Assembly (NCBI RefSeq): GCF_000017625.1
Contig: NC_009712.1
Span: forward strand, 868,001-932,000
Origin: Methanoregula boonei 6A8
GTDB lineage: Archaea; Halobacteriota; Methanomicrobia; Methanomicrobiales; Methanospirillaceae
Length of the DNA: 64,000 bases
Reading direction: 5' to 3'
Shown here: one piece after another, positions 43,622-49,329 of the stretch
Numbering within the stretch: position 1 is the stretch's first letter
How the letters are laid out: every line of letters begins with the position of its first letter
The notes under the pieces: generated by a model
What the model was told of the DNA's origin: nothing
The model's input: the letters and a program-made list of their open reading frames with translations, nothing else
The model's database searches: none
Made by a program: the position numbers and the translations under genes

Positions 43622-45460
43622 ATGAAATATTCTCTCCCCTCCGGCCTCACACCGACAAAACGGACTATCATCATCGCCATAGTGGTCGGTGTTATTGCCG
43701 GTTTTGGCTCCCTTATCTTTTATGAGGGGCTCAAATGGGGAATCGCATTCTTCATGGGGTATATCCTGCAGTATGTTTACCCGCAGGAAGGCCAGAGCGC
43801 TGCTGTGATCAGCCAGTGGTCCGATCCGCATTCGCTCTTCCTCCTGATTCCCATCCTCCTGTTCGGGAGTCTCCTGACCGGCATCCTCATCACCCGGTTT
43901 GCTCCCGAGACTGAAGGACATGGCACCGATGCAGCGATCAAGGCATTCCATGGAACCGGCAGGATACGTAAAAGGGTCCCGATCCTCAAAGCTGTCACGG
44001 CAATTCTCACCATCTCAACCGGAGGAAGTGCAGGAAGGGAAGGGCCGTCAGCCCAGATTTCGGCAGGTTTTGGATCCGTTGTTGCAGATATGCTGGGACT
44101 CTCCCCAAAAGAGAGAAGAATTGCGCTTACGACCGGCATAGGAGCCGGGATCGGGACTATATTCAAGGCACCGCTTGGCGGTGCAGTGCTTGCAGCAGAA
44201 GTCCTCTACACCCGGGACTTCGAATCCGACGCGATTATTCCGGCATTTCTTGCATCGGTGATCGGTTATGCGATCTTCGGGTTCTTCGAAGGATACGCGC
44301 CCATCTTTTCGCTCGGTCCGATCTCGTGGACGGTCGTACAGATTCCCTTCTTCCTCCTGCTCGGGATTCTGTGTGCGGCTTTTGGACTCCTTTACATTTT
44401 TGTTTTTTACTCGAGCCGCGATTGGTTTGCCGCCCAGTTCAAACGATATAATCTTCCCCCGTACTTAAAGCCGGTTTCGGGAGCGCTTATCCTTGGCATT
44501 CTGGTCACGGCACTTGCGCTCATCTCCCCCGAGGCAGAAACGCTTGGTCTTTCCGCTCTTGGTTCCGGTTATGGTTTTGACCAGCTCATGTTGTATTCCC
44601 TGCTCCCGCTTGCCGTCCTCCTGCTGATGCCGTTTGTCAAGATCCTCGCGACGTCCCTTACCCTTGGCTCAGGAGGAAGCGGGGGGGTTTTTGGCCCGGG
44701 GCTGACTATCGGTGCGTCAGTCGGGGCAGCGCTTGGTATTATCCTGCACCTGTTTTTCCCGGTGTATGTACCTCTGGAAACGATCCCCGTGTTTATTGTT
44801 GTCGGCATGATCTCCCTCTTTGGGGCGGTGGCAAATGCGCCCATTGCGGTGCTGATCATGGTTGTCGAGATGGTCGGGAGTATCACGATCCTGATACCGG
44901 CCATGGCCGCAGTTGCAGTTTCGCACCTGCTGACCGGAGAGAAGACCATCTTCCACGACCAGGTGCCAACGAAAGCACAGTCCGGCGCCCACCGGGGGGA
45001 ATATGACCGGGAAACCCTTGAAGGGATCTTTGTCCGGGACGCGATGACCCCGCGTGAAGCGGTTATCACGCTCTCCCCCTCAGATGAGCCGGAAAAGGTT
45101 ATCGATCTCATGGCAAAGACCGGTCATACCGGTTTTCCCATTGTCGAAGACGGCCACCTTGTCGGGATCATCACCAACCGGGATGTGAGCGCCATCCGTG
45201 CTGCAGAAAAAACGTGCCCGACCATACGCGAGATCATGACATTCAAGCCATTTGTCATCCATCCGGACGATACCCTTGAAGATGCCCTTGCGATCATTGT
45301 CGGCCATGACTTTGATCACCTTCCGGTTGTCCGAAAGGAAACCCCGGATATGCTTGTGGGCTTTCTTACCCGGTCCGATGTCCTGAGAACCTACGTTCAG
45401 GCAGACTATCTGGCAGAATGCAAAAAGGAGGAATGTGTGTTGCCCGCCAAAACTCCCTGA
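43622..45460 (+). CDS. ClC-family chloride channel/antiporter with two CBS domains
   Basis: 612 residues. About ten to twelve membrane helices up to ~440, then two CBS domains (FVRDAMTPREAVITLSPSD and TIREIMTFKPFVIHPDD) that may sense nucleotides. Selectivity motifs: GGSAGREGPSAQ with the gating Glu, and GSGGSGGVFGPGLTIG. The first motif (usually GSGIP) is GHGTDAAIK. The gating Glu suggests an ordinary H+/Cl- type rather than the fluoride-specific CLC-F type. A broken copy of its 5' end lies at 40373. Convergent with the fluoride-export operon. Confidence 0.9.
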   Translation: MKYSLPSGLTPTKRTIIIAIVVGVIAGFGSLIFYEGLKWGIAFFMGYILQYVYPQEGQSAAVISQWSDPHSLFLLIPILLFGSLLTGILITRFAPETEGHGTDAAIKAFHGTGRIRKRVPILKAVTAILTISTGGSAGREGPSAQISAGFGSVVADMLGLSPKERRIALTTGIGAGIGTIFKAPLGGAVLAAEVLYTRDFESDAIIPAFLASVIGYAIFGFFEGYAPIFSLGPISWTVVQIPFFLLLGILCAAFGLLYIFVFYSSRDWFAAQFKRYNLPPYLKPVSGALILGILVTALALISPEAETLGLSALGSGYGFDQLMLYSLLPLAVLLLMPFVKILATSLTLGSGGSGGVFGPGLTIGASVGAALGIILHLFFPVYVPLETIPVFIVVGMISLFGAVANAPIAVLIMVVEMVGSITILIPAMAAVAVSHLLTGEKTIFHDQVPTKAQSGAHRGEYDRETLEGIFVRDAMTPREAVITLSPSDEPEKVIDLMAKTGHTGFPIVEDGHLVGIITNRDVSAIRAAEKTCPTIREIMTFKPFVIHPDDTLEDALAIIVGHDFDHLPVVRKETPDMLVGFLTRSDVLRTYVQADYLAECKKEECVLPAKTP

Positions 45461-45541: not shown

Positions 45542-45862
45542 TTATTCCGGAGTCTTTCTAATCATCCGGACATTCTGGAGCGTGACCTGCCCGTGCTCCA
45601 CAAATCTTTCGATATCCGGGAGAATGGCCATGATCTTCTCCTGGGTGTCCACAACCTCAAGGGTTACGGGAAGGTCAAGCGAGAGCCTGAGCACGTCTAC
45701 CGTGTGGATAACGTTCTCGTGGCCGAAACCCGCCATGCCCCGCAGGACCGTGCAGCCGTGAAATCCTTTCGCCTTGAAATAATCCACCAGGTACTTGTAC
45801 GCCGGCCGTCCTTCGATTGTTGTTGATTCTGCGATGTAGATCTTGAGTAAAATTCCATCCAT
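45542..45862 (-). CDS. DUF190 protein of the fluoride-export operon
   Basis: 106 residues. I start it at the ATG 45862 (MDGILLKIYIAES) because GGAG is spaced 7 bases before it; the open frame extends to 45901 but would overlap crcB. The DUF190 family is a small ferredoxin-like fold with a conserved YxxLVDYFKAKGFHGCTVLRGMAGFG region, all visible here. Such proteins are regularly encoded beside crcB and are thought to be accessory or regulatory, possibly PII-like. Third gene of the operon behind a fluoride riboswitch. Confidence 0.88.
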   Translation of the reverse strand: MDGILLKIYIAESTTIEGRPAYKYLVDYFKAKGFHGCTVLRGMAGFGHENVIHTVDVLRLSLDLPVTLEVVDTQEKIMAILPDIERFVEHGQVTLQNVRMIRKTPE

Positions 45863-45885
45863 AAGCATACTCCGTTCCACCCCCG

Positions 45886-46245
45886 TCACAGGGCTGCCCA
45901 CCCGCCGCAGGCCAGGTATCCTGCGGTCACAGCGAGGAGGCCCCCCCCGATACTTACCGCAGTATATGTGAGAAGGGTGCGATAATCATGATCCTCCATC
46001 ATCCTGAAGGTCTCGTACGAAAAGGTCGAAAATGTGGTAAACCCGCCAAGGCCACCGGTGCAGATGAGATAGTACAGGTCCCCGCTCACCTGCGAAAAGG
46101 TGAGGAGCGAGAGCGCAAAACTCCCGGTAATATTCACAAGCAGCGTTCCCGCAGGGATGCCCCGTAAAGGCTGGATCCGGGAGAGAACAAACCGGAGCAC
46201 CGACCCGGTGGCGCCACCGATCCCGACAAGGATGATCGGCTCCAT
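45886..46245 (-). CDS. crcB: Fluoride channel subunit CrcB/Fluc (second copy)
   Basis: 119 residues with four membrane helices. Start 46245 (MEPIILVGIGG) has GGGAGGT about 10 bases upstream; a TTG at 46254 is an alternative. Fluc signatures: GGATGSVLRFVLSR near the N-terminus, GTLLVNITGSFALSLL, and GGLGGFTTFSTFSYETFRM with the Phe/Ser/Thr pore residues. The gene overlaps or abuts its paralogue upstream. Tandem paired CrcB copies often form heterodimers. Exports fluoride from the cytoplasm. Confidence 0.93.
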   Translation of the reverse strand: MEPIILVGIGGATGSVLRFVLSRIQPLRGIPAGTLLVNITGSFALSLLTFSQVSGDLYYLICTGGLGGFTTFSTFSYETFRMMEDHDYRTLLTYTAVSIGGGLLAVTAGYLACGGWAAL

Positions 46246-46246
46246 A

Positions 46247-46621
46247 TCAGCCAAACCTCCCGTGCAGGATCACAAGACGCCCGCACCAGACCGCAGCAAA
46301 ACCAAGGATAAGGGTTGCCGCAAGGTTTGCCACGCCCATGACCGGCCCGGCAGAAAAAGACTGGACCGTAAGGGCCGAGAACGTAGTAAACGACCCGATG
46401 ATTCCGACCGCACAGAACTGTCGCGTTGTCCGTGAGAACCGTCCCAGGTACATGGACTCGTACATGAAGATGCCCAAAAAGAAGCAGCCGATTGTGTTCA
46501 CCGCAAGCGTGCCGGCAAGCGGGAAGACGAGCACGGTATCGGTCAGGTACCGGAGCACGGCGCCGATAAACCCGCCAATAGCCACTGCGGCAAATGGCAT
46601 CCATTCCGCGGTGTCTACCAT
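46247..46621 (-). CDS. crcB: Fluoride channel subunit CrcB/Fluc (first copy)
   Basis: 124 residues, four membrane helices. Signatures: VAIGGFIGAVLRYLTD, GTLAVNTIGCFFLGIF and GIIGSFTTFSALTVQSF. First gene of the crcB-crcB-DUF190 operon; its stop lies inside the ribosome-site region of the second copy. The ribosome site GGGAGG is 7 bases before the ATG and sits in a potential hairpin (46623-46636). A fluoride riboswitch is 150 bases upstream in the leader. Confidence 0.94.
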   Translation of the reverse strand: MVDTAEWMPFAAVAIGGFIGAVLRYLTDTVLVFPLAGTLAVNTIGCFFLGIFMYESMYLGRFSRTTRQFCAVGIIGSFTTFSALTVQSFSAGPVMGVANLAATLILGFAAVWCGRLVILHGRFG

Positions 46622-46622
46622 G

Positions 46623-46636
46623 CCGGGCCCTCCCGG
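46623..46636 (-). promoter_or_regulatory. Hairpin enclosing the crcB ribosome site
   Basis: On the minus strand CCGGG-AGGG-CCCGG forms a 5-base-pair stem whose stem and loop contain the GGGAGG ribosome-binding sequence, ending just before the crcB start codon. It could act as the expression platform of the upstream riboswitch at the level of translation, but the link to the aptamer is untested. Confidence 0.4.
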
Positions 46637-46770
46637 ATCAGCGCTGGGAGGTATTTACCGGTCCGGCCGCCAGAACGGTACGTACCGGTGCCGGCAACGG
46701 TGCAGGATAAGAGCGCCTTCTTCAGGCTGTACAGCGACAACGGCCACTTCCCCCAAACATTGATCCCCGG

Positions 46771-46820
46771 TAGAAGTCATCAGTCACGATACGTGGCGGT
46801 TGGAGGCGGACTTCATCGCC
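46771..46820 (-). promoter_or_regulatory. Fluoride riboswitch (crcB motif) of the crcB operon
   Basis: On the minus strand the sequence begins GGCGATGAAGTCCGCC, continues with AACCGCC and ends CTGATGACTTCTAC. These are the conserved blocks of the fluoride aptamer: a GAAGTC/GACTTC helix, a CACG/CGTG hairpin with TAT loop, and the CUGAUG core. It lies in the leader of crcB-crcB-DUF190 in the same orientation, exactly where the motif is expected to switch on fluoride export. Confidence 0.9.
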
Positions 46821-46910
46821 GTTAAAAAAAGTGTGTGCTCATGGTAGTTGAAGGTAACGCCAGGTAAGGAGAAGGGACCACGTGCTCACGGGCAGGGCAC
46901 GTGTCAGAAA

Positions 46911-46920
46911 GAAAACTATT
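46911..46920 (+). promoter_or_regulatory. TATA-like element upstream of the plus-strand riboswitch
   Basis: AACTATTTGT lies about 30-40 bases before the plus-strand fluoride riboswitch and would place the transcript start around 46943, just ahead of the aptamer. Weak consensus. A second TATA-like TTAAATAG at 47084-47091 lies after the aptamer and could bypass it. Confidence 0.3.
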
Positions 46921-46951
46921 TGTGACACCAACCGTCATCTCTGATCTGTCA

Positions 46952-47003
46952 GGGGCGATGAAGTCCGCCGTAACCGCCTTACCCTAAAGGCTGATGACTT
47001 CTG
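46952..47003 (+). promoter_or_regulatory. Fluoride riboswitch (crcB motif) ahead of a dynamin-like GTPase operon
   Basis: GGGGCGATGAAGTCCGCC, TAACCGCC, a GCCTT/AAGGC hairpin, then CTGATGACTTCTG. All conserved blocks of the fluoride aptamer are present, with the same GAAGTC/GACTTC helix as the minus-strand copy 130 bases away. A short U-run (TTTT) follows directly. It is oriented toward the 55-residue ORF (47126) and the dynamin-like GTPase (47290), not toward crcB. Confidence 0.88.
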
Positions 47004-47125
47004 TTTTATGCGGGGATTCACGTCTGATCCCACAAACCCGGGCCCGGCTTGTGGTTTTCTTTCGTGATGTGACCGACAGGCCGTTAAATAGTGCATCTGG
47101 AAAAAAAACACCGGAGGAAAACAGG

Positions 47126-47293
47126 ATGGACTCATCGCTACAATCGATCCCTGCCCGGGAGTTTCCCGACTCCCGAAGCAACCCTGCCATTGAAGGAGAA
47201 ATTATGATCCGTGATACTGTGCGGGCAGTGGATCCGTCCGGGGCATCGACCGGGAAAAACCAGGCAGTCGGGTTCCGGGACCGCTTATCATGA
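47126..47293 (+). CDS. Small ORF between the fluoride riboswitch and the GTPase gene
   Basis: 55 residues, beginning MDSSLQSIPAREF. GGAGG at 47112-47116 is correctly spaced, and the stop overlaps the GTPase start codon (ATGA), so translation is probably coupled. The frame is open upstream to an ATG inside the riboswitch, which I do not use. The protein is polar, with no membrane helix and no known motif. It could be a small partner of the GTPase or a leader peptide. A second internal start at 47203 (MIRDTVRAVD) is also preceded by GGAG. Confidence 0.55.
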   Translation: MDSSLQSIPAREFPDSRSNPAIEGEIMIRDTVRAVDPSGASTGKNQAVGFRDRLS

Positions 47294-49329
47294 CGCCCGG
47301 TGCCGCCCCGTCAAACGACTATCTCGCAAAGCACCTCCGGGTCACCTGCCAGTACATTGACCGGCTTCTTGGCGAGATCGAAGGTGTCCTCTACGAATCC
47401 TCATCACGAACCGCATTTCCGGAGTACGTCATGGACATTACCCCGGTGCAGCAGAAGATGATCGAGGATTATATCGCACGCATCCGTACCCGTCTTGTCC
47501 AGGTCATGGAAGGGCAGGGTATGATCAGCAACCCGCCGGGCATCCCGGTCTCGCGGGCTGTCCACAGCAGGCTGTTTACCATCGATGTTGCTGCCGAAGA
47601 ACTCAAACCGCAATACATGATGGGGTTTGGCGATATCCCCGACACTACTGCAACAGAACTCAATGGCATTGCAGGCGAGTTGCAGGCGCTTGTCTCGCGT
47701 CTCGGCCAGTACCTTGAGAGAGGATCCGGGCAGGATTTCCAGGATCGGTTGCAGCGGCTGGAAGCGGCCGGTAATGATCTTGCCCTTCTCTCACGGATCG
47801 AAATGGTAGTCGCAAAAAGGGGACTGGTGGAATTTCGGGGAACGATCGATTCGATCCTCGACCGGGCCGAGGACCGGAGTTTTGAGATCGCGGTCTTCGG
47901 GCGTGTCAGCTCCGGCAAGTCGTCGCTCCTTAACGCCATCATCGGAACTGACGTGCTCCCCGTGGGCGTGACCCCGGTTACCGCCGTCCCCACCCGCATT
48001 ATCCACGGGAAAGATCCATCCCTCACGGTATCGTTTGCCGATGCACCGGCAAGAACGTTTGAAACCCGGCAGCTTGCAGAGTTTGCTACCGAACAGCACA
48101 ACCCCAATAACATAAAGCATGTGACACGTGTCACGGTAACCATCCCGGTATCGCGCCTTTTTGAAGGGGTTTCGTTTGTGGATACGCCGGGTCTTGGTTC
48201 CCTTGCAACAGGAGGTGCTGCCGAGACCCGGGCCTACCTGCCCCGGTGCGATCTCGGGGTGGTCCTGATCGATGCAGGGTCCACGCTGACCGAAGAAGAC
48301 GTGCGGACCATCCGGACATTGCAGGAAGCTGCCATTCCCGCACATATCCTGCTCAGTAAAGCAGATCTCCTCGACCGGCCGGATTGCGAAAAGACCCTCG
48401 GGTACATCAGGCAGCACATAGCCTCAGAGACCGGCCTTGACCTGCCGGTTTACCCGGTCAGTGTCTATCCCTCGCACCAAAAGCTGCTCGACCGGTGGTT
48501 TGAAAAGGAGATCGTCCCGGTTATGAACCATGCGCAGGATCTCCGTGCTGCATCGTTACAGAGGAAGATTGGTGCGCTGCGGGAATCGCTTGCGTATTCC
48601 CTGAAAAACCAGATCCGGAGGAGCCGGCACGCACCTGCGGGAAATGCAGAATCTACCCGGGATGTCGAGATCCGGTTGCGAAGGGCAACCGGTCTTATTG
48701 TCGAGACCGGTAAAGCCTGCCGGGAAAAGGCGGAAGCGATGAACGGGAAGGTTTTTGGAACCTGGATCGCAGGTGCTGCAGTCGCCACCAGCGAAGGGCA
48801 TGAGGGCGCTGACGGAAAAATTTCCGACAAAGATGCGGTCCGCACCGCTGTTCTCCAGACCGTGCAGGCAGGGGTAAATGATATCCAGAGCCGGATCGAA
48901 ACCCTTGCCACAAGCCTGCAGGACGAACTGGTAAAAAGCGCCTTGGACCTCTCCATTGCCGATGTGCCCGGCGATAAGGAATTCCTCTCGCTTATCCGGG
49001 ATATGCCGTCTTTTGATCCGGAAACAATCAAGGTCACGGTGCCCCCCTACGCACTCACCGCAATGCTCGGGACGCACCTGGGAGAAAAACTGGTATCCGG
49101 GAAGCTCCACCGGCTGTTCGACGAATCGTTCGGACTGGTCATTGCCGGTTATTTCAGGCTCCTCAAGGAATGGTCAAGCCAGGTGACGTACCAGATGGGC
49201 CGGAAATTCGAGACCTATGCCGAACGATACCGGGCACAGGCAGTACAATCTCCCGGGGGCCGGGAGCTGACGGCGGATGAGGTGAACGCTATTGAGAAGG
49301 ATCTCAGGGATCTTGGGGAAAATGCGTAA
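47290..49329 (+). CDS. Dynamin-like GTPase
   Basis: 679 residues. A helical N-terminal region (1-190) precedes the G domain: G1 GRVSSGKSSLLNAIIG (204-219), G2 region VTPVTAVPTR with the switch Thr, G3 VDTPGLGS (297-304) and G4 LSKADLLD (355-362). A helical stalk-like part follows to the C-terminus, without a clear membrane helix. The GxxSSGKSSLLNA form of G1 and the large helical flanks mark the bacterial/archaeal dynamin-like family, which remodels or protects membranes. It is preceded by a fluoride riboswitch and a small coupled ORF, an unusual setting for this family. Confidence 0.85.
   Translation: MTPGAAPSNDYLAKHLRVTCQYIDRLLGEIEGVLYESSSRTAFPEYVMDITPVQQKMIEDYIARIRTRLVQVMEGQGMISNPPGIPVSRAVHSRLFTIDVAAEELKPQYMMGFGDIPDTTATELNGIAGELQALVSRLGQYLERGSGQDFQDRLQRLEAAGNDLALLSRIEMVVAKRGLVEFRGTIDSILDRAEDRSFEIAVFGRVSSGKSSLLNAIIGTDVLPVGVTPVTAVPTRIIHGKDPSLTVSFADAPARTFETRQLAEFATEQHNPNNIKHVTRVTVTIPVSRLFEGVSFVDTPGLGSLATGGAAETRAYLPRCDLGVVLIDAGSTLTEEDVRTIRTLQEAAIPAHILLSKADLLDRPDCEKTLGYIRQHIASETGLDLPVYPVSVYPSHQKLLDRWFEKEIVPVMNHAQDLRAASLQRKIGALRESLAYSLKNQIRRSRHAPAGNAESTRDVEIRLRRATGLIVETGKACREKAEAMNGKVFGTWIAGAAVATSEGHEGADGKISDKDAVRTAVLQTVQAGVNDIQSRIETLATSLQDELVKSALDLSIADVPGDKEFLSLIRDMPSFDPETIKVTVPPYALTAMLGTHLGEKLVSGKLHRLFDESFGLVIAGYFRLLKEWSSQVTYQMGRKFETYAERYRAQAVQSPGGRELTADEVNAIEKDLRDLGENA

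Follow-up and report, generated by a model that had tools for sequence, protein, structure and literature searches.

We observed that the 64,000-nucleotide stretch of Methanoregula boonei 6A8 under study (the window) carries two divergent fluoride riboswitch aptamers in one intergenic region, with crcB genes on the minus side and a dynamin-like GTPase on the plus side. With a probability of roughly 0.8, we consider the locus to be a shortened fluoride-response island, in which two independently inherited divergent riboswitches are kept, the plus-side enolase has been deleted and the GTPase now stands under the riboswitch. The features are listed in Table 1.

Table 1. Features of the fluoride locus in the window (positions counted from the first letter of the window)
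Feature	Position	Strand	Basis or remark
Fluoride riboswitch aptamer, enolase class	46945..47010	+	RF01734, 52.3 bits, E 1.3e-11; nearest relatives are enolase riboswitches
Fluoride riboswitch aptamer, PTrep/crcB class	46764..46829	-	RF01734, 50.9 bits, E 3.5e-11; nearest relatives include PTrep-operon riboswitches
Promoter-like AGAAAACTATTTG (BRE/TATA type), plus unit	46910..46922	+	Conserved ahead of enolase riboswitches of G188, G207, G090 and G012
Promoter-like ACCTTCAACTACCAT, minus unit	46841..46855	-	Similar to ACCTTCAATTATCAT ahead of PTrep-class riboswitches
Predicted hairpin hiding the crcB Shine-Dalgarno (CCTCCC...GGGAGG)	46629..46651	-	Sequence and folding
crcB (Fluc) 1	46247..46621	-	Pfam CRCB, 68.2 bits
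crcB (Fluc) 2	45886..46254	-	Pfam CRCB, 90 bits
DUF190 (PII-like)	45542..45901	-	Pfam DUF190, 114 bits
GC-rich hairpin then TTTTCTTT, plus unit (possible terminator-like platform)	47030..47054	+	Weak
Putative enolase N-terminal relic, 55 codons	47126..47293	+	Enolase_N; collinear with the G188 enolase to codon ~53
Dynamin-like GTPase, type B (~150-aa helical N-terminal domain and Dynamin_N)	47290..49329	+	Dynamin_N; orthologues in G188 and G207

Both aptamers were found with cmscan above the RF01734 (Fluoride) gathering cut-off of 34 bits, and the whole genome (2,542,943 bases in a single contig) held these two matches and no others. A chance match as their source was rejected, as was the presence of one aptamer only. 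The first-pass annotation had placed the divergent pair correctly, and the two blocks that it described as shared were found as claimed, GGCGATGAAGTCCGCC at 46954-46969 (+) and 46820-46805 (-), and TGATGACTTCT at 46992-47002 (+) and 46782-46772 (-). In both aptamers the P1 loop and the 3' strand can form the pseudoknot GAAGU/ACUUC. Each of its five pairs was kept in 102 to 104 of 104 related aptamers, with exchanges between A-U, G-C, C-G and U-A at pairs 2, 3 and 4, and pair 3 of P1 exchanges C-G and U-A in the same set. The plus aptamer, which scored higher, retained all pairs, and the minus aptamer showed one C x A mismatch at the base of its inner hairpin, P2 (a variant seen in 5 of the 104, the window aptamer counted). 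The aptamer fold, the pseudoknot and the linked fluoride channel genes are common to the known fluoride riboswitch (the crcB motif, RF01734) and its crcB/Fluc operons. The window differs from these in being archaeal, in having two divergent copies in about 250 bases, and in that a dynamin-like GTPase now lies behind its plus copy. The pair is thus real and well preserved, ordinary in kind and unusual in arrangement.

Fluoride aptamers were present in 59 of the 199 genomes of the order, many of which have several within 10-20 kb, and the islands of relatives contained up to eight fluoride riboswitches. We fetched 54 stretches from relatives and mapped the genes in the first 40 and in the window. 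Directly behind the aptamers were a dynamin-like GTPase (28 cases), a prenyltransferase-repeat protein (16), enolase (6, with enolase second in the operon in others), glutamine synthetase (5, named from sequence by eye), a Na+/H+ antiporter (4), and F420 ligase, an MFS transporter, thermosome and crcB (3 each). Glutamine synthetase and F420-0:L-glutamate ligase (CofE) stood directly behind fluoride aptamers in L094, L095, L096 and L121, and thermosome did so elsewhere; these genes suggest fluoride-induced spare enzymes beyond enolase. Aptamers were also seen in tandem on the same strand (L145:2149-2280; L105:9825-10014; L096:8960-9223; L127:6668-6917), ahead of genes for enolase, CrcB or a Na+/H+ antiporter. 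In G209 the second copy is degenerate, as are the traces in G188 and G207. In G188 and G207, which are congeneric with the window genome, an aptamer is followed by a whole enolase and a type-B GTPase, and the other side carries a divergent aptamer with a type-A GTPase.

When 45 upstream bases were included, the top scores of the plus aptamer were with the enolase riboswitches of G207, G188, G090 and G012, and the best-scoring set for the minus aptamer included PTrep-operon riboswitches of G188, G196 and G140. Because each aptamer, promoter included, matches a different riboswitch class in relatives, the two are, as judged from their sequences, different riboswitch lineages and not recent copies of each other. 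A local inverted duplication, yielding two aptamers that act as one paired device, would agree with the identical outer helix and pseudoknot blocks, and divergent pairs ~75-95 bases apart do occur in eight other genomes. However, those pairs mostly join a type-A GTPase and enolase, not crcB, so that the window pair is a different combination, and the plus copy is much closer to enolase riboswitches and the minus copy to PTrep-operon riboswitches. We regard such a duplication as very improbable, and a recent one was rejected, each copy being closer to a different class. The first-pass annotation had taken the differing inner hairpins as covariation that preserves the fold. The hairpins do differ, but since the two aptamers belong to different riboswitch lineages, the difference would go back to an old divergence and not to compensatory changes between duplicated copies.

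The minus aptamer leads into crcB-crcB-DUF190, and these gene identities, proposed earlier, were confirmed by Pfam, with full-length CRCB matches for both CrcB/Fluc proteins (cut-off 32.9 bits). The last genes of the PTrep operon in G012 and G090 are crcB-crcB-DUF190, and the window genome has only a weak PTrep match, 24% identical, elsewhere in the genome. From these two observations we infer that PTrep and its neighbours were probably lost in the window species, leaving the aptamer abutting crcB. A different arrangement was seen in G154 and G177 (L099:11444-11506; L101:2447-2509), where an aptamer lies between the 3' ends of enolase and a convergent crcB-DUF190 block and points antisense into that block; inversion of the block would give aptamer-crcB-crcB-DUF190. 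Near the crcB operon, the window also encodes a plasma-membrane-type proton P-type ATPase (TIGR01647; 41036-43465), relatives of which occur in the fluoride islands of G140, G012 and G018, and a CLC channel with CBS domains (43622-45460), convergent with the DUF190-crcB operon, which we take from its motif to be an ordinary CLC rather than a CLC-F.

On the plus side, the first-pass annotation had assigned the aptamer to the GTPase side. The GTPase was confirmed by Pfam, but an intervening 55-aa enolase ORF, the first after the aptamer, had been missed. This ORF matched Pfam Enolase_N at 36.8 bits (cut-off 35) and fell below the cut-off of the NCBIfam eno model; it spans model positions 2-51 only, short of a full-length enolase (~430 residues with the catalytic barrel). 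Aligned to G188, the window DNA is collinear over the aptamer, a portion of the stub and the GTPase, and lacks the enolase body. The junction comes after the codons matching the relatives' ELRDR, and ~1.1 kb is deleted relative to G188 and G207, as seen in one assembly, that of the window genome. Among 48 full-length enolases 24 columns are invariant, and the stub departs from them at 8; in a leave-one-out comparison none of those enolases broke more than 2. On this ground we read the stub as the likely relic of a deleted enolase under relaxed constraint.

It could instead be a retained microprotein or leader peptide, for example one coupling GTPase translation to the riboswitch or acting on enolase. 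The ORF is open, has a strong Shine-Dalgarno, ends with a stop that overlaps the GTPase ATG by four bases, and retains the SGAST active-site loop motif. Against this are the eight changed invariant positions and a two-residue deletion, and the short form is conserved in no other genome; in G012, where the gene is also split, the cause is an IS605/TnpB-type insertion. We therefore hold a microprotein to be unlikely. That insertion (L097:6300-7450), which carries IS605 OrfB and Cas12f1-like TNB domains, splits the fluoride-riboswitch enolase shortly after the SGAST loop. Together with the window deletion, it makes at least two disruptions of the fluoride enolase.

Enolase is a fluoride-inhibited enzyme. 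The window genome also encodes, at another place, a complete housekeeping enolase, which shares only 39% identity with a relative's fluoride-island enolase. Spare enolases under a fluoride riboswitch are already known (PMC5533749, PMC11139923), for example in Enterobacter cloacae FRM, whose fluoride-riboswitch operon contains eno, ppaC and crcB (PMC5533749). The present system shares with that operon the spare enolase and fluoride efflux. In contrast to it, the enolase of the window appears to be a relic, and the window's relatives add the GTPase, the prenyltransferase-repeat protein, CofE, GlnA and a chaperonin, which are absent from the FRM operon.

The GTPase gave a Pfam Dynamin_N match of 89.4 bits (cut-off 27), and its closest solved structures among PDB chains were bacterial dynamin-like proteins and IniA (E down to 5e-16). 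Its GTPase domain is similar in sequence to those of a GTP-binding protein (5owv), IniA (6j72) and BDLP (2j68); it differs from these in its link to fluoride riboswitches and in an additional N-terminal domain, helical, that matches no Pfam family. A single-sequence AlphaFold model predicted this domain to be all-helical at low confidence (pLDDT 64). Several genomes encode this domain (47290-47740 in the window) as a small protein of its own behind enolase, for example at L097:8591-9085. GTPase relatives were found in 36 of the 199 genomes of the order, and all 36 were among the 59 with a fluoride riboswitch (hypergeometric p 2.7e-24, a statistic that ignores shared ancestry). Outside the order, three genomes, of other families, had such relatives, all with an upstream aptamer on the same strand: in G226 and G244 the aptamer directly precedes a GTPase ~30% identical, and in G431 the order is aptamer-crcB-DUF190-GTPase. 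A related-loci search for the GTPase in genome contigs gave no confirmed match. In the literature searched, no paper tied dynamin-like proteins to crcB, and the novelty of this link is provisional. The fluoride-linked GTPase is under-studied and is the main lead from this locus; its role may be membrane maintenance under HF/fluoride stress.

An archaeal-type promoter sequence lies ~30 bases upstream of each aptamer and is conserved within each riboswitch class. This feature and the covariation of the pseudoknot across the 104 related aptamers give good support to two divergent fluoride aptamers that would each open a transcription unit of their own, and it is plausible, as had been proposed, that one fluoride signal drives two operons. 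A sigma-70 and terminator scan, ill-suited to archaea, gave chance-level matches only. In folding of the crcB leader, the unpaired probability of the Shine-Dalgarno rose from 0.02 in the free fold to 0.51 when the pseudoknot strands were held unpaired. None of 100 shuffled leaders reached as large a release, and other held windows gave an accessibility of at most 0.17. Since holding the pseudoknot strands frees the Shine-Dalgarno, the folding supports a translational ON switch, released by fluoride, on the crcB side. A similar case in archaea is the fluoride riboswitch of Thermococcus kodakarensis (Speed et al. 2018), described in PMC8241225 and PMC11077080 as a probable regulator of translation; the window differs in having two divergent switches.

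The same folding test on the plus leader gave no Shine-Dalgarno release (0.34 to 0.35, with 64 of 100 shuffles as large), and the plus-unit hairpin and T-run were no better than chance (1 site against 0.8 expected from shuffles). A set of 104 leaders was searched near the Shine-Dalgarno for a complement of the pseudoknot strand. Those with the strand ACUCC (GTPase-type leaders with a mapped gene) had the exact complement GGAGU 3-7 bases before an ATG in 12 of 37. Both window aptamers are of the ACUUC class, which lacked this signal in the 104 leaders, except near some MFS genes, and we set the signal aside as evidence for the window. It might be argued that the crcB-side switch alone is functional and that the plus aptamer is a fossil from the enolase loss, given that its main target gene is deleted and that its leader shows no predicted Shine-Dalgarno switch. 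However, it is the plus aptamer that has the higher score and every pair kept, its promoter is conserved, and the GTPase has an intact frame of 679 codons, with 62-63% identity to the orthologues behind the whole enolase in G188 and G207. We thus give the fossil reading little weight.

We propose that the shortened island would work as follows. Each of the two independently inherited riboswitches would begin a separate transcript. Fluoride binding on the minus side would let the pseudoknot form and free the Shine-Dalgarno of the first crcB, and the fluoride channels and DUF190 would then be made. The plus riboswitch would originally have induced the spare enolase and, behind it, the two-domain dynamin-like GTPase. 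The deletion would have taken most of the enolase, leaving the relic whose stop overlaps the GTPase start, so that fluoride may now induce the GTPase alone.

Known fluoride riboswitches serve exporters and a small number of fluoride-sensitive enzymes. That the GTPase is so tightly and repeatedly linked to the riboswitch in methanogens hints at a layer of fluoride defence that is as yet unstudied and might consist in membrane repair. As a tentative wider view, to which we give slightly less than even odds, methanogens may use a dedicated dynamin-like membrane GTPase as a central element of fluoride defence, in multi-riboswitch islands with fluoride-inducible spare metal- and phosphoryl-handling enzymes (enolase, F420 ligase and glutamine synthetase), of which the window would be a stripped-down example. 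The comparison of species shows that the part of the island that can be lost is the enolase, while the exporters and the GTPase are retained.
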